The notes below the pieces were generated by a model. The model was not told where the DNA came from, searched no databases, and saw only the letters and a program-made list of their open reading frames with translations. A program made the position numbers and the translations under genes. Below are positions 27,219-56,430 of a stretch of DNA of 64,000 nt, in pieces. The number at the start of each line of letters is the position of its first letter. The first letter of the stretch is position 1. This DNA comes from Acidobacteriota bacterium (lineage in GTDB: Bacteria > Acidobacteriota > Terriglobia > Terriglobales > Acidobacteriaceae), in NCBI GenBank assembly GCA_003225005.1, contig QIAN01000263.1, positions 1 to 64,000 on the forward strand, given 5' to 3'.

Positions 27219-28412
27219 CTACTCTTCCGGCTTGCTTGCTCCGCGAAAAATCGGCTCGAGCATCGTCGCTATTAATGTGAACATCGCCGCGCATCCCGCC
27301 AGTGGCACTATGAGACCAGCCCGCAAGCTTCCCATTCTTGTCGACATCACTCCTACAAGCCACGGCATCGTAGCCCCCCATTCCCGCAAGCCCGAACATA
27401 ATCGCCCCGATTCGCCTTGACCTCTCGCCAAATGCCTTTACCAGCCACGCAACCAGGATGGGATAAGTCCCAGCTAGTCCCAATCCGGCGGCGGTCACCG
27501 AGATTGCGACGCTTTCGAAGGTCCTTGCTTCGAGCAGAAGGCAGATGCCAGCAGCTGCCAACATCAAACCGCTCGCCAGCAGCGTGCGTTCGCGCCGCCG
27601 CAGTGGAACCAGCGGTACGAGCGCGTCCGGCTAACAGTCCTCCCCAGAAAAACATGGGCGTCAAAGCCCACAGGTCCCCAGAACCAGGGTTGGTTCGTTT
27701 CGTCAGTGAGGCCACCCAACCCGCAACCGAATTCTCGGAGCCGACATATAGAAAAAACAGCGCGGCCAGACTCACAGTGCTTCGCGTGCTGATATTCTCC
27801 GCGCGCGCGGGACCACGCTGTTCCTCTTCTTCCGTTGTTCCTCTCTCCAAGTTCATCCCGGCCAAAATCAAGGCGGTAAACAGCGCGCCAACCGCAATGG
27901 CATAGAGAAGCCATGCCGTTGCTCCGCGCCGCTCGGCAAGCATGACCAGTGGGGAGGAAGAAATTGCGCCGAGTCCCCACATCAGGTTCAGAATGCTGAG
28001 TGCCGCCACTCGACGGGTTTTCGCAACTTCTGCCACCCATAAGTTCGTGGCAGAAAGAACCTGCCCCAATCCACAGCCGAACACCGCGGCTGCAGCCAGG
28101 CTCGCAACATAGCTACCCAGGTTTAACCCTGCCACTCCCGCCGCGATCAGGCTGAAGCCGCATACGAACGCGTGCCGATATCCTCGTTGGATCAGCCAGC
28201 CGAGCGAAGCGACCCCCGCCATCGAGCCCGAAAACTGCGCCGTGAAAAATAGACCGGCATGCTGGTCGGTTAAAGACCACCGGCCAATGAGTATCGGCAA
28301 GATAGGGCCAATCAGCGTCGTCACGATTCCCGCGACCACAAATCCGCCGTAGAACCACGGATGCAGCCGAAGAGGTCGGAAGCGGAGCTGGCCGAGTTTG
28401 GATCGAGCTCAT
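27219..28412 (-). pseudogene. Frameshifted MFS sugar-type transporter
   Basis: One MFS protein is spread over three frames. The N-terminal half is read from FYGGFVVAGIVTTLIGPIL to ALTPMFFWGGLLAGRA, the middle from LMLAAAGICLLLEARTF to FGLAGMG, and the end from ATMPWLVGVMSTRMG to FRGASKPEE. One break lies near 27625 and another at a run of six G (minus strand) near 27380. A third shift is needed to reach an ATG (28410-28412). The wording resembles FucP/sugar MFS proteins. Either this is a true pseudogene or it contains several assembly indels. It is convergent with GH30 and follows the GH15 gene on the same strand, so it may once have imported released sugars. Confidence 0.7.
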
Positions 28413-28417
28413 GCTCA

Positions 28418-28438
28418 AAGCATTCTGTCGGAATGCTT
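28418..28438. promoter_or_regulatory. Inverted repeat upstream of MFS gene
   Basis: Two 8-bp arms, AAGCATTC and GAATGCTT, are separated by 5 bases and lie 5 bp before the MFS ATG on the minus strand. This is the size of a LacI/GntR-type operator; it could also form an mRNA hairpin over the ribosome-binding region. No second copy was noticed. Confidence 0.4.
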
Positions 28439-28620
28439 GCCTGTGGCCACTTCGCGGACAACCAAGAGCGTCGGGCAAGATGTAAGGTAATGGTGATTCT
28501 ACAGACGGGCGGTTACAGCCGGTTATGCCAATAAGCACACTAAGTTTAGGAAATGTTCCGGCTGATCGCTATGGGCCTTTTCACCGGTGCTGTTCAAAAC
28601 TCGCTCGTCCGGCGGCTGAA

Positions 28621-31029
28621 CTACTCCACCGCGACGCCATAGTTTGTGCCTTCCCAACGATTTTCCTGCCGCCAGAAAAATGTGAAGACGACCTGGCTCC
28701 CGGGAGGAAGGGAAGCCGTGGGCAGATCGAGCGTGTGGATTCCCAACCCGGTGTCGCGAGTGCTGGTATCCTCGAAACTTTGCCAGCCATCCAGAGTCCA
28801 GCGCACTATGGCGGGTGAAAGCAAGACCAACCGCAGTTTTTTGCTGCGCGGGACGGTGCGACATTTATTATTAAACCTCCACCCGAAGATTTGCCTCTCA
28901 GGCTTTTGAATCAGATAGCGTTGTACTGTTTGCGGCGGTTGATCGAAAATCTTGCCTTCGCGCAGGGAACGGCGGAGTTTTACATACTCCGAGTGAGCCC
29001 AGACCAAGGGGCAGGCTGAGCCCGAGGGTTTACCGCGAAAAAGTTCCAGGGATGGTATATCGGCGGCATCCCACACTTGCTCCGGAAGCAGGCGGCTTTG
29101 GCCAGATGTGGATTTCTCGATGACAGAAAGAAGAGCTTCTGCCTCTTTCCGACGTCCTGCAGCCAGTTCGTAGTGAGCGCGTTCTCCAGCGAGCAAGGGC
29201 CAAGGACGACCTATCCCAGTGCCGTCAAAGGGAGAACCATCCTGGTGCTCGCCGTAACCATCGCCGTTGTAGCGGTACCAGCAGGGTCCTTGCGGCAGCT
29301 GCACCCGGAGCAGGGCGTCAATGGCTTTGACGGTGTCAAGGATTCGGGGATCATTGGGAGCCCTGAGTCCGAAGCGCACCAGCGCCAATGAGTCGGGGCT
29401 GATGACGTGAGAGGCCCGCTCCAGATTGTCGCCCGGCGGTCGATTCTTAATGGGCACGAAACCCTGCGTAGGCGACGCCGCGCCGTCGGTATCCGGCGGA
29501 GCGATGCGTACGTAATAGCCCTCCACTCCGAGCTGCTGGGCAAGGTCTCCGCCGGTGGCATAGGTCCAGCGCTCGATGTTGTCGTTCCACGCGTCGGCTG
29601 CATCTCGCAGCGTCGAGCTAGCTTCCTTGTGTCCGGTGAGCTCAGCGATGTCAGCCGCAGCCAGCAGCGCCGAGATTTCTGCGGCCAACGTGAATGGGGA
29701 ATAGCCTGCGTCCTCTTCCCATCGATCCTGTTGCGTGACCGGACCGTTGCGCAGGATGTAACTTGCGGCTTTGCGTACCATAGGCCACCAGCGTTGCGGA
29801 TTGCCCAAAGCGGCAGGCGGTGCTTCACGGCGTAGCAGATCGAGCAAGAGAATAGGGAAGGCGGTCTCATCCATCTGGACGCCGTGCCAGTACGCCCGAC
29901 CATCGAGCCACATGTTCTGGGGCCAGTTGCCTTCGGCTTCTTGCGTGGCTTCGAGATAGCGGAGCACCTTGGCCGCGTCGATCACTGCGCCGGCGGCGAG
30001 CATCGCACCAGCGGTTTCTACCAGATCGCGCGGCCAGATGAGATGGTATCCGCCCAGGTCTTCATCGCCCTTATTAAACCCCCAGGGGATGGAAAGACTG
30101 GCGATGACGCCACCCAGAAAATCTTTTGATTCGTGGGTTCGTAGCACTGCCGCGGAGGTTCGATAGAGGTCGTCCGAGCGCTGTGGTTGGTCGAGCTTGA
30201 GTAAACCGTCCTGCCAAGTCTTCCACTGGGCTACGTAGTGGCCGCGCAATTCCCCGTAATCTTCAAACAAAGCAGCCCGCGATTGCTGCCCGGCTTCCGA
30301 CCATACGGCGCCGAAGCCCAATGCCACCACGAACTCTCCCTGGCAGGCCGCAAGGTCAATCTCTCCGGTGATCGCGATGTTGCCGTTTTCAGCTCGCCTG
30401 TATGTCCACTCCATTTGAAAATGTTGTGAGAGATCTTGCCAACCGTCCGAGGCACCTACGAACCCAACCGACATCCTGCCCCAAGGCGCAGAGCTAGCCA
30501 AGGCCAGGGTGACGCCGTCGTGTTCGGCGAAAAACATCGACGCGCCCTTGTAATCGCCCACCCATCCGGTGTTGCCATAGCCGCTGTTGGCCAAGTGGGG
30601 CGACAGCAACACGTACAACCGATAATCGGAGAGTTGGCCTTTCAGGGGCGCGAAGCGAACCTTCTGGAGTACTACGTTACGGTAGGGGTCGGTGAACACC
30701 TCCTTGTGGATGCGGTAGCGGCCGCTCATGCAGGTATTAGCCAACTCAAACGCTGGAACACCGGGGTCGAAGGGGCGGTTTTCAAAAGTACAATGACGCT
30801 TTTCTTCAGAAAAAAACTCGTGGCCATCGGTGACGATAAACCCAAGATCGCGAGTACAAGCCTGGTCGACACGTGGGTAGTAAACTTCGTTGAGGATGCC
30901 GTGGCTCAGCGTAAACCAAACTTTGCTGTGCTGGTTGAGGGCCGTGCCGACCCCGGTTTTCGCGCTCGAGGTCCAGCGAGGCGCAATCCCCGGCCAGCCG
31001 GGAGCGTAACCTGTGGGAGAATCAGTCAT
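28621..31029 (-). CDS. Glycoside hydrolase family 15 glucoamylase-like enzyme
   Basis: An 802-residue protein in the bacterial glucoamylase/glucodextranase layout. An N-terminal super-beta-sandwich spans about 10-275, beginning GTALNQHSKVWFTLSHGILNE. It is followed by the (alpha/alpha)6 barrel of GH15. The catalytic acid is probably Glu388 (QMDETAFPI) and the base Glu681 (WAHSEYVKL). WPRDLVETAG is the family signature, and a short beta-domain closes the chain. No signal peptide is present, so it should act in the cytoplasm, releasing beta-D-glucose from the non-reducing ends of alpha-glucans such as glycogen or imported maltodextrin. It is divergent from the exported helical protein at 31.2 kb. 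Confidence 0.9.
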   Translation of the reverse strand: MTDSPTGYAPGWPGIAPRWTSSAKTGVGTALNQHSKVWFTLSHGILNEVYYPRVDQACTRDLGFIVTDGHEFFSEEKRHCTFENRPFDPGVPAFELANTCMSGRYRIHKEVFTDPYRNVVLQKVRFAPLKGQLSDYRLYVLLSPHLANSGYGNTGWVGDYKGASMFFAEHDGVTLALASSAPWGRMSVGFVGASDGWQDLSQHFQMEWTYRRAENGNIAITGEIDLAACQGEFVVALGFGAVWSEAGQQSRAALFEDYGELRGHYVAQWKTWQDGLLKLDQPQRSDDLYRTSAAVLRTHESKDFLGGVIASLSIPWGFNKGDEDLGGYHLIWPRDLVETAGAMLAAGAVIDAAKVLRYLEATQEAEGNWPQNMWLDGRAYWHGVQMDETAFPILLLDLLRREAPPAALGNPQRWWPMVRKAASYILRNGPVTQQDRWEEDAGYSPFTLAAEISALLAAADIAELTGHKEASSTLRDAADAWNDNIERWTYATGGDLAQQLGVEGYYVRIAPPDTDGAASPTQGFVPIKNRPPGDNLERASHVISPDSLALVRFGLRAPNDPRILDTVKAIDALLRVQLPQGPCWYRYNGDGYGEHQDGSPFDGTGIGRPWPLLAGERAHYELAAGRRKEAEALLSVIEKSTSGQSRLLPEQVWDAADIPSLELFRGKPSGSACPLVWAHSEYVKLRRSLREGKIFDQPPQTVQRYLIQKPERQIFGWRFNNKCRTVPRSKKLRLVLLSPAIVRWTLDGWQSFEDTSTRDTGLGIHTLDLPTASLPPGSQVVFTFFWRQENRWEGTNYGVAVE

Positions 31030-31185
31030 GGAGCTTCCTCGGGGGTGCCTGCTGCCAACGGATCAATTTGCTAGAAAGTCTCTTCATTGCCGGAGGTTGT
31101 ACGAAAGCGAACGAATCTGGCTGCCCTGCCGGGATTTTTGGCATCGTAATATGTACGGGAGCTTTGCGACGACTAGATCGGTGCC

Positions 31186-31213
31186 AGGATAACCGAATCA
31201 GGATAACCGAATC
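31186..31213 (+). repeat. Tandem 14-bp duplication at a translation start
   Basis: AGGATAACCGAATC occurs twice head-to-tail and ends exactly at the ATG of the next gene. Each copy supplies an AGGA; the second is correctly spaced from the start codon. Slippage between copies would move or double the ribosome-binding site without touching the coding frame. Confidence 0.75.
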
Positions 31214-32122
31214 ATGAGAGCCAGCCACTACGATTCCCGCCCTTCGAAGTTCCGAACTGACGGGAGCCCCCTTGTTCGGACAATCACCTGGTGTCTCGGG
31301 GCCGCGTTCTGCGTGTGTCTGCTATTCATGCTCAGCGCACATGCCAGTCCGGTCCCATTGGACGGGACGGCTCTGGATGAGGGTTTCCTGGACCTATATA
31401 ACTTGCATTTTGATGTTGCGCAGAGGGACTTCGCTCGATGGGAGTCACAGCATCCGGATGATCCCATGGGGCCGGTGAGCCAATCTGCCGGACTGTTGTT
31501 CTCCGAATTCAACCGACTGGGTGTACTGGAGTCGCAGTTTTACGAGAACGATGATGCCTTTGAACGCCGCGCGAAGGTGTTGCCTGATCCCGCCGTCAGA
31601 GGGCGATTCCGGGTGTATTTGGAAAGGGCGTCGAATCTGGCTCATCTTCGGCTGACAAAGGACAGCAAGGATAAAGATGCTCTGTTTGCCTTGACTTTGT
31701 CAGCCGGTCTCGAAGCCGACTACGCAGCACTCATAGAGAAGCGCAACCTGGCATCATTGCACTCCGCCAAAGAGGCTTCGGTCTGGGCGCAGCAGTTGCT
31801 GGCGGTTTGTCCCAACTGTTACGACGCTCTATTGGCCACCGGTTTCAGCAAGTACATTATCGGGAGCATGGCCGCCCCCGTGCGCTGGATACTTCGCCTT
31901 GGCGGTTTGCCGGGGGACAAGAAATCGGGAATTGCCGACCTCGAGCTTACCGCGCGACGAGGACACTACCTGGCTCCTTTCGCGCGCATTCTTCTGGCAA
32001 TTGCGTACGTGCGCGATAAAGATAAGCCTCGCGCTCTCCAGATGCTCGACGGGCTGCGAACTGAGTTCCCCGGAAACACGCTCTTTCCACGCGAAATTGC
32101 CCGACTGGAACGAGCGCATTAG
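31214..32122 (+). CDS. Exported helical-repeat (TPR-like) protein of unknown function
   Basis: A 302-residue protein with a long N-terminus and a signal anchor (WCLGAAFCVCLLFMLSAHA, about 27-45). The mature part is largely helical, with TPR-like elements (LDLYNLHFDVAQRDFARW near 60 and AFARILLAIAYVRDKDKPRALQML near the end). No enzyme motif is seen. I do not recognise the family beyond the helical-repeat character. The start is fixed by the 14-bp repeat carrying AGGA upstream. The gene lies between the GH15 gene (divergent) and pstS (158 bp downstream, same strand). Confidence 0.7.
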   Translation: MRASHYDSRPSKFRTDGSPLVRTITWCLGAAFCVCLLFMLSAHASPVPLDGTALDEGFLDLYNLHFDVAQRDFARWESQHPDDPMGPVSQSAGLLFSEFNRLGVLESQFYENDDAFERRAKVLPDPAVRGRFRVYLERASNLAHLRLTKDSKDKDALFALTLSAGLEADYAALIEKRNLASLHSAKEASVWAQQLLAVCPNCYDALLATGFSKYIIGSMAAPVRWILRLGGLPGDKKSGIADLELTARRGHYLAPFARILLAIAYVRDKDKPRALQMLDGLRTEFPGNTLFPREIARLERAH

Positions 32123-32215
32123 CCAATCCATTTTGGCAATTGCCCTCCCCATCGCGCATCCCTGACATTCGACGGGGGGATTCGACTCTCTCCATTTATC
32201 AGAAATTCACCAATT

Positions 32216-32231
32216 TGTAACTGTCCTGTAA
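32216..32231 (+). promoter_or_regulatory. Pho-box-like direct repeat before pstS
   Basis: TGTAACTGTCCTGTAA contains TGTAA twice with an 11-bp period, the spacing used by PhoB-type OmpR-family regulators. It lies about 50 bp before the pstS start, where a Pho box would be expected. A related repeat with the same period precedes pstC. The regulator itself is not in the window. Confidence 0.5.
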
Positions 32232-32282
32232 TATTTACCCGCTAGTACTGGAAGGAAACAATTTAAGGAGACCCATCGAGTG

Positions 32283-33287
32283 ATGCGCAGAATAACGCTG
32301 CTGCTATGGTGTGCCCTAGTCGCCCCGCCGGCCTTTGGGCAGACGACGCTGAATGGAGCAGGTGCTACCTTTCCCTATCCAATCTATTCGAAGTGGTTTA
32401 GCGAGTACCACAAGCTCCATCCTGATATCCAAATCAATTACCAGTCTATTGGAAGCGGCGGGGGAATCCGACAGGTGATCGCCGGTACGGTCGACTTTGG
32501 CGCCAGCGATGGCCCCATGACGGATGACCAACTGAAAGAGGCAAAGATCAAGATTCTGCACGCACCTACGGTGTTGGGTGCCGATGTTCCCGCTTACAAC
32601 ATACCCGGCGTGACCGGGGAGCTGAAATTTACACCCCAGGTGCTGGCTGGAATCTTTCTGGGCAAGATCACCAACTGGAATGACAAAGCCATCGCCGCCG
32701 CCAATCCGGGAGTAACTCTTCCCAACCAAGATATCATCGTGGTGCATCGCTCTGATGGCAGCGGAACCACCTACATCTTTACCGATTACTTGGCCAAGGT
32801 CAGCCCGGAGTGGCAAAGTCAGGTCGGCAAGGGTACTTCCGTCAAATGGCCAACTGGAATCGGCGGCAAGGGCAATGAAGGAGTAGCGGGTTCGATCCGT
32901 ACCCTACCCGGATCCATCGGCTATGTCGAACTTGTTTATGCCGTACAGAACAACATTGCCTATGGCAGCATAAGAAATTCGGCGGGAGTGTTCTTGAAGG
33001 CTTCCTTAGAGGGAGTAACCGCTGCTGCCGCGTCGGTTGCGAGTATGCCGGCTGACTTCCGGGTATCCATCACCAACGCGCCCGGCAAGGACGCATACCC
33101 GATTTCCAGCTTCACTTGGCTGCTGATTCCGGCGCAATCCAAAGATCCAGCCAAGGGGAAGATTCTAGCGGACTTTCTGAACTGGATGGTCACCGATGGC
33201 CAGAAGATGGCGGCTCCATTGTCCTACGCGCCGCTGCCGGACAGTATCGCCGAAAAAGTGAAAGAAGAAATCAAACAGGTCCGATGA
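32283..33287 (+). CDS. pstS: Phosphate ABC transporter substrate-binding protein
   Basis: A 334-residue periplasmic binding protein with a signal peptide (MRRITLLLWCALVAPPAFG). The PstS wording is unmistakable: LNGAGATFPYPIYSKWF at the mature start, IGSGGGIRQV and DFGASDGPM in the phosphate pocket, and HRSDGSGTTYIF in the second lobe. It captures phosphate for PstCAB. ATG 32283 is preferred to GTG 32280 because AAGGAG at about 32264-32269 suits it. The permease genes are not adjacent: they lie 7.5 kb downstream, past an IS element, ppk1, sixA, ppx and a CHAD gene. A Pho-box-like repeat precedes it. Confidence 0.95.
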   Translation: MRRITLLLWCALVAPPAFGQTTLNGAGATFPYPIYSKWFSEYHKLHPDIQINYQSIGSGGGIRQVIAGTVDFGASDGPMTDDQLKEAKIKILHAPTVLGADVPAYNIPGVTGELKFTPQVLAGIFLGKITNWNDKAIAAANPGVTLPNQDIIVVHRSDGSGTTYIFTDYLAKVSPEWQSQVGKGTSVKWPTGIGGKGNEGVAGSIRTLPGSIGYVELVYAVQNNIAYGSIRNSAGVFLKASLEGVTAAAASVASMPADFRVSITNAPGKDAYPISSFTWLLIPAQSKDPAKGKILADFLNWMVTDGQKMAAPLSYAPLPDSIAEKVKEEIKQVR

Positions 33288-33455
33288 CCTCTCGCGAGCG
33301 CGGAATTCCTGGCACGCCAACTACAGCTGAGGTGTGCCTTGCGGCCGGCAGCGACTCCCCATACGCGTAGCCGAGCGCCCGATTCGAAAAGCTCGTTCCG
33401 TTGTGTCACCGTCGATACATCCCCGTCAGCTTATGTTCTATACTTGGGCCTAGCG

Positions 33456-33670
33456 ATGGCGAGCAAATTGGCATTGTCGATTCGCATTTTTGGCCTGGGG
33501 CTCGTTAATTTGCCGGTCGTCTGTGCTACGCAAAAACCATACGTTCAGGGCAAGTTTCTCGCCATTCAGCAGAAAAGTAGAGATCGGGTTGACCTGTATT
33601 TAGTAACACGCCAATCACGACGGCCGTGCCCTATTTTGAAATCACCGTGGAATTCGGGGACCTCGATTAC
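33456..33670 (+). pseudogene. 5' half of small exported-protein gene split by IS element
   Basis: The fragment opens with a signal-like stretch (LALSIRIFGLGLVNLPVVCA), continues QGKFLAIQQKSRDRVDLYLV, then, after a single missing A in GTAACACG, NTPITTAVPYFEITVEFGD and LDY. It stops at TTAC, the IS200/IS605 target. The second half resumes at 35297 as VAEYTPRHSGEELPEAW. Together, with the missing base restored, they make a 127-residue protein that I recognise as a conserved acidobacterial exported family of unknown function. Both the IS insertion and the one-base deletion inactivate the gene, unless the deletion is a sequencing error. Confidence 0.7.
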
Positions 33671-33782
33671 CGAAAAGGCGCCGTAAAGCCCCCGCCCTTT
33701 AGGGCTGGGGATATAAGGCGTATTTTGCGAAGCAAAACCGATTTCGCGTGTATTAGATAGATGCCTGTGGTATAGTTCAAGC

Positions 33783-34184
33783 ATGGCACTAGAAGGGTAC
33801 AAATCGAACAATAATGTGGTGTATTCCAGCAAATATCATTGCGTGTGGACGCCCAAGTATCGGCGCAGCGTGCTTGTTGGTCCGATTGCAAAACGCTGTG
33901 AACAGGTGATTAGACAGACCGCTAAAAAATATCGGGCTGAAATCATCGCCTTGGAAATCATGCCCGACCACGTGCATGTGCTCCTCGAAGTGGACCCGCA
34001 GTTCGGCATCCACAGATTGGTCAAGAATCTCAAGGGAGTTTCATCGCACACCTTGCGGCAAGAGTTTCGCACATTGAAATCACGGCTACCCACACTTTGG
34101 ACGAATCGCTATTTCGTATCCACGGTTGGCGGGGCACCACTGGCGGTGATAAAGCAATATGTTGAAAATCAGAAAGACGTTTAA
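33783..34184 (+). CDS. tnpA: IS200/IS605 transposase, Y1 HUH type
   Basis: A 133-residue single-domain HUH transposase. The metal-binding pair is His63 and His65 (PDHVHVLLEV), and the catalytic Tyr126 lies in KQYVENQ. It cuts and joins single-stranded DNA at the element ends during replication, recognising the terminal hairpins. All key residues are present, so the element could be mobile. Length matches the family. Its 3' end overlaps tnpB by 26 bp. The ribosome-binding site before ATG 33783 is weak. Confidence 0.93.
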   Translation: MALEGYKSNNNVVYSSKYHCVWTPKYRRSVLVGPIAKRCEQVIRQTAKKYRAEIIALEIMPDHVHVLLEVDPQFGIHRLVKNLKGVSSHTLRQEFRTLKSRLPTLWTNRYFVSTVGGAPLAVIKQYVENQKDV

Positions 34185-35292
34185 GTACCGCTTATATCCC
34201 AACCGCAAGCAGCGGGAATCCCTGCTGGCCACGTTGGACGTGTGTCGCTATTTGTACAACGATGCCCTACAGGAGCGCCGCGAGGCTTGGAAGCTTTGCC
34301 GAAAGTCAATCCCATTCGCGATGCAGTCGGCACAGTTGCCGGCCTGCAAACAAGCCGATGCACCCATGCGAGGCGTGTATTCGCAGGTACTGCAAGATGT
34401 GCTGCACCGCGTGGATAAAACCTACAAGGGGTTCTTTCGCCGTGGCAACGGTTTCCCGCGATTCAAGGGCAAAGGCTGGTTCGATTCCTTCACCTATCCG
34501 CAAGCAGGTTTCCGTGTGGAAGGAAGCCAAGTATCACTATCGAAAATCGGCAATGTGAAAATCAAGTGGCACCGCCCGCTTGCTGGCGCAGTAAAAACGC
34601 TCACCCTGAAACACGAAAATGGCAAGTGGTATGCCTGTTTCTCGTGCATCGTGGACGTAGAACCACTACCTGCCAATGATTCTGTGGTGGGCATAGATGT
34701 TGGCTTGGAATGCTTCGCTGTCACCAGCGATGCGGAAATCGTGGACAACCCACGTTGGTTTGGTACTGCCCAAAAGAAACTGCGGGTTATGCAGCGCCAC
34801 GTATCCCGCTGCAGCAAGCGGTCTGGAGGCTGGCGTAAGGCGTGTATGTTTGTTGCTCAACTGCATCGCCACGTATTCAACCAACGCAACGATTTCCAGC
34901 ACAAGCTATCTCGTGAACTGGTAAATCATCATGGCTTCATTGCCGTGGAAGATTTGCATGTGAAAGGCTTGGCTGGCGGAATGCTTGCGAAGTCAGTACA
35001 GGATGCCGCGTGGTCAAGCTTCATCGCAAAGTTGTCCTATAAGGCTGAAAGTGCCGATAGGCTGCTGGTGAAAGTGAATGCCCGTGGAACCTCGCAACAA
35101 TGCCCTTGTGGTGCGCCTGTGCCCAAGAAACTTTGGGACAGGTTGCACAAATGCGCGGCTTGCGGTTTGAAAACAACCCGCGACCACGCATCGGCATTGG
35201 AGATTTTAAGGCGTGGACTGCGCCTGAGAACCGAAACGCCTGCGATAGCGGGCGTGGCTCTTGAAGCCCCGAGCTTTAGCTATGGGGCGTAG
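34159..35292 (+). CDS. tnpB: TnpB RNA-guided nuclease of the IS605 element
   Basis: A 377-residue TnpB with an intact RuvC site: Asp180 (VVGIDVGLECF), Glu264 (IAVEDLHVKG) and Asp342 (TTRDHASALEIL). A zinc-finger insert is formed by CPC near 315 and CAAC near 332. The N-terminal part holds the helix-turn-helix and WED-like regions (KTFKYRLYPNRKQRESL). TnpB proteins use an RNA copied from the right end of the element to cut DNA beside the target motif, which keeps the element in the genome after excision. By that logic the motif here would be TTAC. The size and residues indicate an active protein. Confidence 0.93.
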   Translation: MLKIRKTFKYRLYPNRKQRESLLATLDVCRYLYNDALQERREAWKLCRKSIPFAMQSAQLPACKQADAPMRGVYSQVLQDVLHRVDKTYKGFFRRGNGFPRFKGKGWFDSFTYPQAGFRVEGSQVSLSKIGNVKIKWHRPLAGAVKTLTLKHENGKWYACFSCIVDVEPLPANDSVVGIDVGLECFAVTSDAEIVDNPRWFGTAQKKLRVMQRHVSRCSKRSGGWRKACMFVAQLHRHVFNQRNDFQHKLSRELVNHHGFIAVEDLHVKGLAGGMLAKSVQDAAWSSFIAKLSYKAESADRLLVKVNARGTSQQCPCGAPVPKKLWDRLHKCAACGLKTTRDHASALEILRRGLRLRTETPAIAGVALEAPSFSYGA

Positions 35293-35312
35293 TCACGTGG
35301 CCGAGTACACGC
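35150..35312 (+). ncRNA. Predicted omega (right-end) RNA of TnpB
   Basis: In IS605 elements the guide RNA for TnpB runs through the tnpB 3' end and the right-end hairpin into flanking DNA. Here the scaffold would include the GAAGCCCC...GGGGC hairpin at 35266-35288, and the guide would begin at GTGGCCGAGTACACGC (35297 onward). The 5' limit is arbitrary; the call rests on knowledge of the family, not on a visible promoter. Confidence 0.4.
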
Positions 35313-35464
35313 CGCGGCACTCCGGAGAAGAGCTGCCGGAGGCTTGGAGGCCGGACGAAGCCGTACGCGGCAGAGTAGACAAGCATCGTCTTTATTTGCT
35401 TCGGCCCGATGGCAGCGAAATGCAATTCATCATCGAAAAAAAAGCACCACTCGGCAAGAAATAA
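35297..35464 (+). pseudogene. 3' half of small exported-protein gene split by IS element
   Basis: In-frame continuation of the 33456-33670 fragment: VAEYTPRHSGEELPEAW, then VDKHRLYLLRPDGSEMQF, ending at TAA 35462-35464. The frame joins exactly to LDY at the TTAC target when the IS is removed. The ORF track starts it inside the IS (35261), which is an artefact. The product family is of unknown function. It ends 33 bp before ppk1. Confidence 0.7.
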
Positions 35465-35497
35465 TCCAAAACCAGTAACTCGTAGCACGCATCACTC

Positions 35498-37657
35498 ATG
35501 GCTCGCCCTTCACTCGAGAATCCAGCGTATTACCTCAATCGCGATACTTCCTGGCTTGCCTTTAACCGGCGTGTGCTTGAGGAAGCAGAGGATGAGAACA
35601 ATCCTGAGCTCGAGCGGCTCAAGTTTCTGGCCATCTCTGCCAGCAATCTCGACGAATTTTTTGAGATCCGCGTGGCGGCCATGGTGCAGCAGATTGAGGA
35701 CGGCTATAACGACGCCGGCCCGGACGGCCTGACCCTGGTCGAAAGACGGGACGCCCTGGCGAGATTGACGCATGAATTCGTCGACGACCAATACCAGTGC
35801 TGGAATTCCAGGTTGAGACCTGCGCTAGGGGAGAACGGCATCCGAGTGCTGAGCCTGCACGAACTGGATCCGGCAGCCCAGAGGTTCGTCGAGCAATATT
35901 GCGAAAAAGAGCTCGACCCATTACTCACGCCGGTGACCGTGGACCCGGCTCACCCCTTTCCGCGGGTCATGAACAAGGCATTGTGCCTCGGTTTGCTCTT
36001 GCGCCGCCGTCGACGCTCCGCGCTCACTTATATGGGCGTGGTAGTCGTGCCTCGGGCTTTGCCCAGACTGGTGCGGCTACCCTCCGAGGGCAGCTCGGAT
36101 TTCATTTTCCTCGCCGACCTGGTCGCCTACCATGCCGTGCGCATGTATCGCGGTTATGACATTGTTTCGGCGGCGCCGTTTCGCGTCACCCGCAACAGCA
36201 ACCTCTACCTGCAAGAGGAAGAGGCGCGCAGCTTGCTGGAGTCGGTCCGCGCCGAATTGCATAACCGGCGCAAGGGAGATGCGGTCCGGCTCGAGATTGA
36301 GGCCGATGCCGATCCCGAAATTATCGAGCGCCTGAAGACCGTGTTTGCATTGGAGGCCTGGCAGGTTTTTCCGGTGAAAGGCCCGGTGAATCTATCGCGC
36401 CTGTTCAACATTTACGAACAGACCCAGCGCCCTGATCTCAAGTACCGCAGTTTTGCCCCGCGCGAATTGCGTCTGACGGCGAAGTCCAAAGACTTGTTTG
36501 AGGAGCTTAGGGGTCACGATATCCTGTTGCATCATCCCTACGATTCCTACGACGCAGTGATCTCTTTCATTGAGTCGGCAGCCGCGGACGACCGAGTGCT
36601 GTCGGTGAAGCAGACACTCTACCGCACCAACGAACATTCGCTCATTGTGCCTTCATTGATCGACGCGGCTTCTCGGAAGGAAGTGACCGCAGTAGTGGAG
36701 TTGAAGGCGCGTTTCGATGAGGCCTCGAATATCCGCTGGGCGCGGGAGCTGGAAGATGCGGGCGTCCAGGTATTCCACGGACTGGTCGGCCTGAAGACCC
36801 ATTGCAAGCTTTCATTGCTGGTGCGCCGCGATCCCGATGGCGTGACTCGCAGTTATGCGCACATTGGTACGGGAAACTACAATGCGACCACAGCCCGCAT
36901 CTACACCGATCTGAGCTTGTTCACGGCCGCTCCTGAAATTACTCGTGCCGTTCACGATGTTTTCAGCTTTCTCACCGCCTACGCCGAGAATCCCAGCTAT
37001 GACCCTCTGTTGGTCGCTCCCCTCGATCTGGCGGAAAAGTGCATTTGGCTGATCGACCGTGAAGCCGAGTACGCTCGCCAAGGGCGCCCGGCCAGGATCG
37101 TGGCAAAAATGAATGCACTGCTCGATAAAAATATCGTGCAAGCTCTTTATCGTGCTTCGCAGGCTGGAGTTGACATCGATTTGATCGTGCGCGGCATCTG
37201 CGCCCTACGGCCCGGCGTGCGGGGAGTGAGCGATCGTATTCGAGTTCGAAGCCTTGTGGGACGTTTCCTCGAACATAGCCGGATCTTCTATTTCGCCAAT
37301 GCCGGCCAAGACGAGATATATACGGGCAGCGCGGACTGGATGCCGCGGAATCTATACGAACGGGTCGAAGTGCTAACCCCGGTGCGGGACGAACTGCTTC
37401 GGGAGCGAGTCCGCGGAGAGATTCTCGAGGCCTATCTTGCGGACAACCTCAAAGCCCGAAATCTCCTCCAAGACGGGACCTACATTCGGGCGTGGCAAGC
37501 TGCTGGGGGTAAGCGCAAGCAGAAGCCGCCGGCGGGTGCTGCGGCCTTCAGTGCTCAAGATTTTCTGATTGCGTTGGCGGAGGGCAAACCGCCACTGAAC
37601 CCGCCCGCGGCAACGCCCGCCAGAAAACGCTGGACATTGGCGGAAAGAGTACGATAA
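35498..37657 (+). CDS. ppk1: Polyphosphate kinase 1
   Basis: A 719-residue PPK1 with the four-domain layout. The N-terminal domain opens YYLNRDTSWLAFNRRVLEEA, the head domain follows at about 120-320, and the two phospholipase-D-like catalytic domains complete the chain. His455 in SYAHIGTGNYNATTARIY matches the autophosphorylated histidine, and LEHSRIFYF carries the second catalytic His. The enzyme reversibly transfers the ATP gamma-phosphate to polyphosphate. It begins the rightward pair ppk1-sixA (6-bp gap), opposite ppx/gppA. No Pho box is visible in the 33 bp upstream, and the IS just upstream may have altered its expression. Confidence 0.96.
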   Translation: MARPSLENPAYYLNRDTSWLAFNRRVLEEAEDENNPELERLKFLAISASNLDEFFEIRVAAMVQQIEDGYNDAGPDGLTLVERRDALARLTHEFVDDQYQCWNSRLRPALGENGIRVLSLHELDPAAQRFVEQYCEKELDPLLTPVTVDPAHPFPRVMNKALCLGLLLRRRRRSALTYMGVVVVPRALPRLVRLPSEGSSDFIFLADLVAYHAVRMYRGYDIVSAAPFRVTRNSNLYLQEEEARSLLESVRAELHNRRKGDAVRLEIEADADPEIIERLKTVFALEAWQVFPVKGPVNLSRLFNIYEQTQRPDLKYRSFAPRELRLTAKSKDLFEELRGHDILLHHPYDSYDAVISFIESAAADDRVLSVKQTLYRTNEHSLIVPSLIDAASRKEVTAVVELKARFDEASNIRWARELEDAGVQVFHGLVGLKTHCKLSLLVRRDPDGVTRSYAHIGTGNYNATTARIYTDLSLFTAAPEITRAVHDVFSFLTAYAENPSYDPLLVAPLDLAEKCIWLIDREAEYARQGRPARIVAKMNALLDKNIVQALYRASQAGVDIDLIVRGICALRPGVRGVSDRIRVRSLVGRFLEHSRIFYFANAGQDEIYTGSADWMPRNLYERVEVLTPVRDELLRERVRGEILEAYLADNLKARNLLQDGTYIRAWQAAGGKRKQKPPAGAAAFSAQDFLIALAEGKPPLNPPAATPARKRWTLAERVR

Positions 37658-55182: not shown

Positions 55183-56430
55183 TTATGGATATGAAATCTT
55201 CCCCAACACCGCCGCCCGTTTCGCTCCTGTCGCCGATGGCAGGTTCGAAGGCCGCCGATGCCAGGTCTCGTAGGCCAGCATCGCGAAGGCCACGGCCTCT
55301 TTCGCCTCTGAGGGTAACCCGAACTCATCCGAGAATCGAATCTTTATACCCACCGAAGCCAGTTCGTGAGACAACATTCGAACCAGAGTCGGATTCTTTG
55401 CCCCACCACCCGAGAGAATCATTTCGGCATAGGGTTGCTTCCGCCCCCCGGGGCAAGCGTTCACCACAAATCGTACTGCATCCGCGATCGACCTGGCGGT
55501 CAGCGTCGTAGCCGTGGCCACAACATCCTGTTTGCGGGCGCGACCGCAGCTTTGCAAAAACTCTCGCACGAACTCACGGCCAAATTCCTCGCGCCCTGCC
55601 ACCTTCGGCGGCGCCTTGCGGAAGAAAGGACGGCGCAGGATATCGTCGATCACCCGATCGAGTGAGTCTCCGGAAGCGGCGATCTTTCCGCCACGATCGT
55701 AAGGGCGACCGAAAAGCTCTTCCGTGACCGCATCCATCACCATATTTCCCGGACCCGTATCGAACGCAACAACCTCACTGGCCGCCGCCCCGGCGGGAAT
55801 GGCCGTCAGATTCGCAATGCCGCCGATGTTCTGTACAACGCGCCCCCCTGTGGAATCGGCGAACAGCAGATAGTCGAGGAAGGGAACCAGCGGTGCGCCC
55901 TTGCCCCCCACTGCCATGTCCGCCGGACGAAAATCGGAAACCACCGGCACACCTACCCGCGCCGCAATAGTTGCGGCCTCGCCCGTCTGCCACGTTGTCG
56001 CCACCTGGCGACCCAGGAACGGCTTCGGCTCGCCCTGGTGATAAAGCGTCTGCCCGTGACAACCCACGAGTTCAGTTTTCACTCGAAAGCGGCGCTGTGC
56101 CGAGAGCACGGCGTCGGCATACAACTCCCCCAGCAAAAAGTTCAGACGCGCTAACTCGGCCACCGATATTTCCCCCGCATTCATGGCACCTAAGACCGCT
56201 GACCGGACTTGCTTCGCATACGGGAACTCGACGTGCCCGAGGAGCTTGACGGTGTGGCCAGGACACTCGTGCCCGCGAACCATATCGCGGGACCACGCGC
56301 GGGAAGCCGTTCCGGACCGTTGCCGGGCGCCGCCACGCGTGTCACCCACCCGCACCAGCGCCACATTAATTCCGTCCGCCGAGGTCCCACTCATCACTCC
56401 GGCCACGACCAGCATACCTTTGGGTTTCAT
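55183..56430 (-). CDS. anmK: Anhydro-N-acetylmuramic acid kinase
   Basis: A 415-residue AnmK. The ATP loop is VAGVMSGTSADGINVALV, further signatures are GCHGQTLYHQGEP and VQNIGGIANLTAIP, and the catalytic region holds AFDTGPGNMVMDAV. It converts 1,6-anhydro-MurNAc into MurNAc-6-phosphate during recycling of cell-wall fragments. Its ATG overlaps the nagZ stop (ATGA). The gene is slightly longer than usual because of an insert near residue 33-55 (RVGDTRGGARQRSGTASRA). Confidence 0.94.
   Translation of the reverse strand: MKPKGMLVVAGVMSGTSADGINVALVRVGDTRGGARQRSGTASRAWSRDMVRGHECPGHTVKLLGHVEFPYAKQVRSAVLGAMNAGEISVAELARLNFLLGELYADAVLSAQRRFRVKTELVGCHGQTLYHQGEPKPFLGRQVATTWQTGEAATIAARVGVPVVSDFRPADMAVGGKGAPLVPFLDYLLFADSTGGRVVQNIGGIANLTAIPAGAAASEVVAFDTGPGNMVMDAVTEELFGRPYDRGGKIAASGDSLDRVIDDILRRPFFRKAPPKVAGREEFGREFVREFLQSCGRARKQDVVATATTLTARSIADAVRFVVNACPGGRKQPYAEMILSGGGAKNPTLVRMLSHELASVGIKIRFSDEFGLPSEAKEAVAFAMLAYETWHRRPSNLPSATGAKRAAVLGKISYP

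Follow-up and report, generated by a model that had tools for sequence, protein, structure and literature searches.

Introduction

One of the known systems closest to the arrangement reported here is the repeat tract in the hmw1A promoter region of Haemophilus influenzae, which consists of 11-24 seven-base units and for which both variation between strains and effects on expression have been proven (PMC8262952). In Beggiatoaceae, direct repeats of a single heptamer, TAACTGA, lie 5' of start codons in 169 sets across a genome (PMC4679880). A related layout without repeats is that of leaderless genes, in which a TA-like -10 signal stands about 12 bp before the start; such signals have been detected in some Acidobacteria (PMC3160421).

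The locus considered here lies in a 64,000-nt stretch of DNA from a soil acidobacterium (the window), from a genome that, judging by its named relatives, groups with the Candidatus Sulfotelmatobacter-type Acidobacteriota. In it, a 14-bp unit is doubled immediately before a gene for an exported 302-aa protein (Table 1). As at hmw1A, the tandem repeat would lie between the -10 box and the coding sequence, overlapping the former and forming part of the 5' leader, so that copy number would alter leader length. Unlike the hmw1A tract, with its 11-24 variable heptamers, it has just two units, of 14 bases each, and nothing indicates that they vary, and unlike the Beggiatoaceae heptamer, the unit is found at one site only. 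The GATAAC of its second copy starts 12 nt before the ATG, as the signals of leaderless genes do, and a leaderless layout is what would be predicted for a one-copy allele. In the present two-copy form, however, copy 2 has no -35 element, whereas the much higher score belongs to copy 1, from which a leader of about 14 nt is predicted.

A literature search by title brought up no paper that deals with the gene for the 302-aa protein or with promoters of this form in Acidobacteria. The value of the locus is modest, as a worked case in which a seemingly doubled ribosome site overlaps what relatives indicate to be a gene-specific promoter conserved in an uncultured acidobacterial genus, and in which the layout of the repeat makes plain which features extra or missing units could change and which they would leave as they are.

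Table 1. Features of the locus, in window coordinates
Feature	Coordinates	Strand	Remarks
GH15 glucoamylase/glucodextranase gene	28621..31029	-	Divergent, conserved neighbour
-35-like TTGCGA	31164..31169	+	6.1 bits by the orthologue matrix; 18 bp before the first GATAAC
Repeat copy 1, AGGATAACCGAATC	31186..31199	+	Probable -10 GATAAC at 31188-31193, first base 26 nt from the ATG
Repeat copy 2, predicted 5' leader	31200..31213	+	Weak SD-like AGGA at 31200-31203, 10 nt before the ATG
Gene for exported, all-helical TPR-like protein, 302 aa	31214..32122	+	ORF, predicted structure, weak TPR matches
pstS	32280..33287	+	Conserved downstream neighbour; own Pho-box-like TTGTAACTGTCCTGTAA at 32215-32231

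Results and discussion

A tandem duplication adjoining a start codon

The first-pass annotation of this DNA had described a 14-bp head-to-tail duplication touching an ATG, and this description holds: the two copies are exact and contiguous, and the second adjoins the ATG at 31214 of the 302-aa ORF. The period-14 run extends over 31185-31214, two bases beyond the doubled unit (TRF: 2.1 copies, 100% match, score 60). Its score is the second highest among the 18 arrays of the window, and it is the only perfect array of that length; the top-scoring array, at 55231-55276, is an imperfect 22-bp tandem repeat.

Comparable runs appeared once in total in 20 shuffled windows, or 0.05 per shuffled window, and 255 kb of the same genome contained three such runs counting 31185-31214, about one per 85 kb. 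The repeat is a true duplication, above chance, though not unique in kind within its genome. A search of the genome (7.9 Mb, 550 contigs) gave no exact match to the unit beyond these two, which speaks against a dispersed repeat family, and one-mismatch sites number only five. Elsewhere in the genome, at L125:6791-6821, a 10-bp unit, AAGTCAAAAT, occurs about three times over and is unrelated to the 14-bp repeat.

A promoter-like pair conserved in orthologues

Upstream of the gene, 29 of the 32 orthologues from the genus carry either GATAAT (21) or a one-base variant of it (8). In most of these, the first base of the hexamer lies 22-29 nt before the putative ATG, and TTGC(A/G) begins 22 nt before the hexamer, giving the form TTGC(A/G)-N17-GATAAT. 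The position relative to the start codon is therefore conserved, the corresponding distance in the window being 26 nt. The intergenic region of the window is too diverged for base-by-base alignment with the orthologues, so the element is judged homologous from its motif and spacing.

A weight matrix was built from 24 orthologues, most of which contain the TTGC, with the window excluded from training, and was scanned over the window (127,760 positions). Within 31030-31300, the best site was TTGCGA-N18-GATAAC at copy 1, with 10.6 bits. Thirteen positions of the window score higher, which places this site 14th overall, but among 125 gene starts of the genome examined at the orthologous spacing of 22-29 nt it ranks first, the next reaching 7.5 bits. 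The GATAAC of copy 2, which has no -35 at the proper distance, scores 4.1 bits. This comparison with the orthologues makes copy 1 the most likely site of the conserved promoter's -10 box. The match is imperfect: the hexamer ends in C, against a final T in every one of the 24 training orthologues, the spacer is 18 bp vs 16 bp in the orthologues, and the score falls under the entire training range of 14.4-27.7 bits, partly on account of the final C, so that promoter activity is not assured. A standard strict sigma-70 scan found no promoter at the repeat region.

The element was also considered as a genome-wide promoter class and rejected as such, since counts of TTGC-N16-18-CGATAATR in six genomes were few and near those of the control; it looks specific to the gene for the 302-aa protein. 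Many genus orthologues additionally carry a TTKACAAANNNTTKACAAA-type element in the divergent intergenic region that corresponds to 31030-31213. The window contains no match to it when up to three mismatches are allowed, which indicates that its regulatory region has diverged.

Predicted geometry of promoter and leader

The reading that we favour, and consider probable, is a 14-bp tandem duplication in the promoter-leader region in which copy 1 supplies the -10 element and copy 2 the leader. The repeat, the promoter-like motif of the relatives, its best match at copy 1 and the lack of the repeat in the other genus genomes are observed; that the promoter is active, where transcription starts, how long the leader is, how the duplication arose and whether it affects expression are inferred. 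The doubling would be a recent event of the replication-slippage type, after which the GATAAC of copy 1 would serve as the -10 element in TTGCGA-N18-GATAAC, the conserved promoter. In sigma-70-type promoters, transcription begins about 7 nt after the -10 hexamer. The transcript would thus start near 31200, about 7 nt past the hexamer of copy 1, and the mRNA would have a leader of about 14 nt that is essentially copy 2, AGGAUAACCGAAUC-AUG, with AGGA near its 5' end.

On this model the duplication sets the distance between promoter and ATG, at 26 nt against a family norm of 22-29 nt, and leaves the spacing between the Shine-Dalgarno sequence and the ATG untouched. With one, two or three units, the promoter-ATG distance would be 12, 26 or 40 nt and leader length would shift in step; a single unit would predict a nearly leaderless mRNA. 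A presumed one-copy ancestor would have had its box just 12 nt from the present ATG, unlike any relative, which makes the ancestral layout hard to reconstruct.

Like slippage-driven contingency (phase-variable) loci, the locus has a tandem repeat placed where it could alter expression: perfect over 2.1 copies, it touches the ATG and overlaps the predicted -10 box. It does not consist of many short units, and a tract of just two 14-bp units is much less prone to slippage than those of known contingency loci.

Alternative readings of the repeat

The first-pass annotation had taken the doubled unit to carry the ribosome-binding site, with a copy number that drifts by slippage and so tunes translation. 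An AGGA does stand at a suitable place, and it is a plausible yet weak Shine-Dalgarno sequence: its best pairing with the anti-SD tail, -4.1 kcal/mol, is equalled or beaten by 25% of random 20-mers. The same value is reached by 46% of gene starts in the genome, where SD-like pairing is therefore enriched, and this speaks for the reading. Against it, no Shine-Dalgarno sequence is conserved in the orthologue leaders; what the orthologues do conserve is the -35/-10-like pair. Moreover, the unit reaches right up to the ATG, so the gain or loss of a unit would leave the AGGA-ATG spacing as it is. There are also only two copies, the repeat occurs in no congener, and the leader RNA folds no more strongly than shuffled sequences. 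We regard this explanation as unlikely. What survives of it is the AGGA itself and the broader idea that a change in copy number may affect expression, although not by the translational route that had been proposed. An Rfam search of 28000-36000 returned nothing.

The duplication might instead be neutral, with the promoter elsewhere and the GATAAC match a coincidence. The missing final T, the 18-bp spacer, the 13 better-scoring places in the window and the frequency of similar duplications in this genome are all consistent with such an account, whereas the rank of copy 1 as the best of 125 genes at the orthologous spacing, which by this empirical count would come up by chance in about 1 case in 125, argues for a real element; we hold neutrality to be possible but doubtful. 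Two identical sites inside a promoter region could also form an operator, with the 14-bp unit as the binding site of a regulator. A genome with no other exact copy and only five one-mismatch sites does not fit this well, nor does a unit common to no relative or a period of 14 bp, which is a non-integral number of helical turns, and an operator is very improbable.

Origin of the duplication

With up to three mismatches allowed in 28 bases, the repeat was found in none of the 44 other genus genomes (45 were searched, including its own). The comparison covered one genome of this species, and coding-base identity to the nearest orthologues is about 70-73%. The repeat copies show no differences at 16 compared sites, which limits their divergence to <0.19 per site (95%). 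Between the gene and its counterparts in the four relatives compared, 28-30% of bases differ. Since the copies are identical and the gene is so diverged, the duplication probably postdates the splits from these four relatives. It is ordinary in kind, and there is no evidence of copy-number variation.

A second duplication was found in the same -10 (GATAAT) region of one orthologue, L052 (G067:C62): the 15-bp units ACGATAATAAGGCAA and ACGATAATCTGGCAA stand in tandem with 13 of 15 positions identical, and the pair occupies roughly the stretch from 163 to 133 nt ahead of the codon that corresponds to residue 52. This duplication, missing in the sister L065 (87% identity in the coding sequence), arose independently of the 14-bp event in the window. 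Two duplications at one promoter may be coincidence and do not demonstrate selection. A recurrent site of 14-15-bp duplications, arising independently in the two species and adjusting the promoter-ATG distance, with a change from near-leaderless to leadered in the window, seems to us very unlikely.

The gene and its neighbourhood

The ATG at 31214 is the sole in-frame ATG, GTG or TTG ahead of the hydrophobic signal core in the N-terminal segment of the 302-aa protein. The predicted structure is all-helical (mean pLDDT 86), and family and fold searches gave just weak TPR matches (best fold E 0.0029), in agreement with the earlier label of a helical-repeat protein; a PDB sequence search gave no match.

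In the 42 loci of relatives, some of them incomplete, the GH15 gene is divergent in 22 and pstS lies downstream in 30. The Pho-box-like direct repeat 5' of pstS has a chance expectation of 0.02, and related forms are also present 5' of pstS in relatives. Further downstream, an IS200/IS605-type element at 33783-35292, with a Y1 transposase ORF overlapping a TnpB-like ORF, sits between pstS and a 719-aa ORF (35498-37657) that, judged by eye, resembles polyphosphate kinase.
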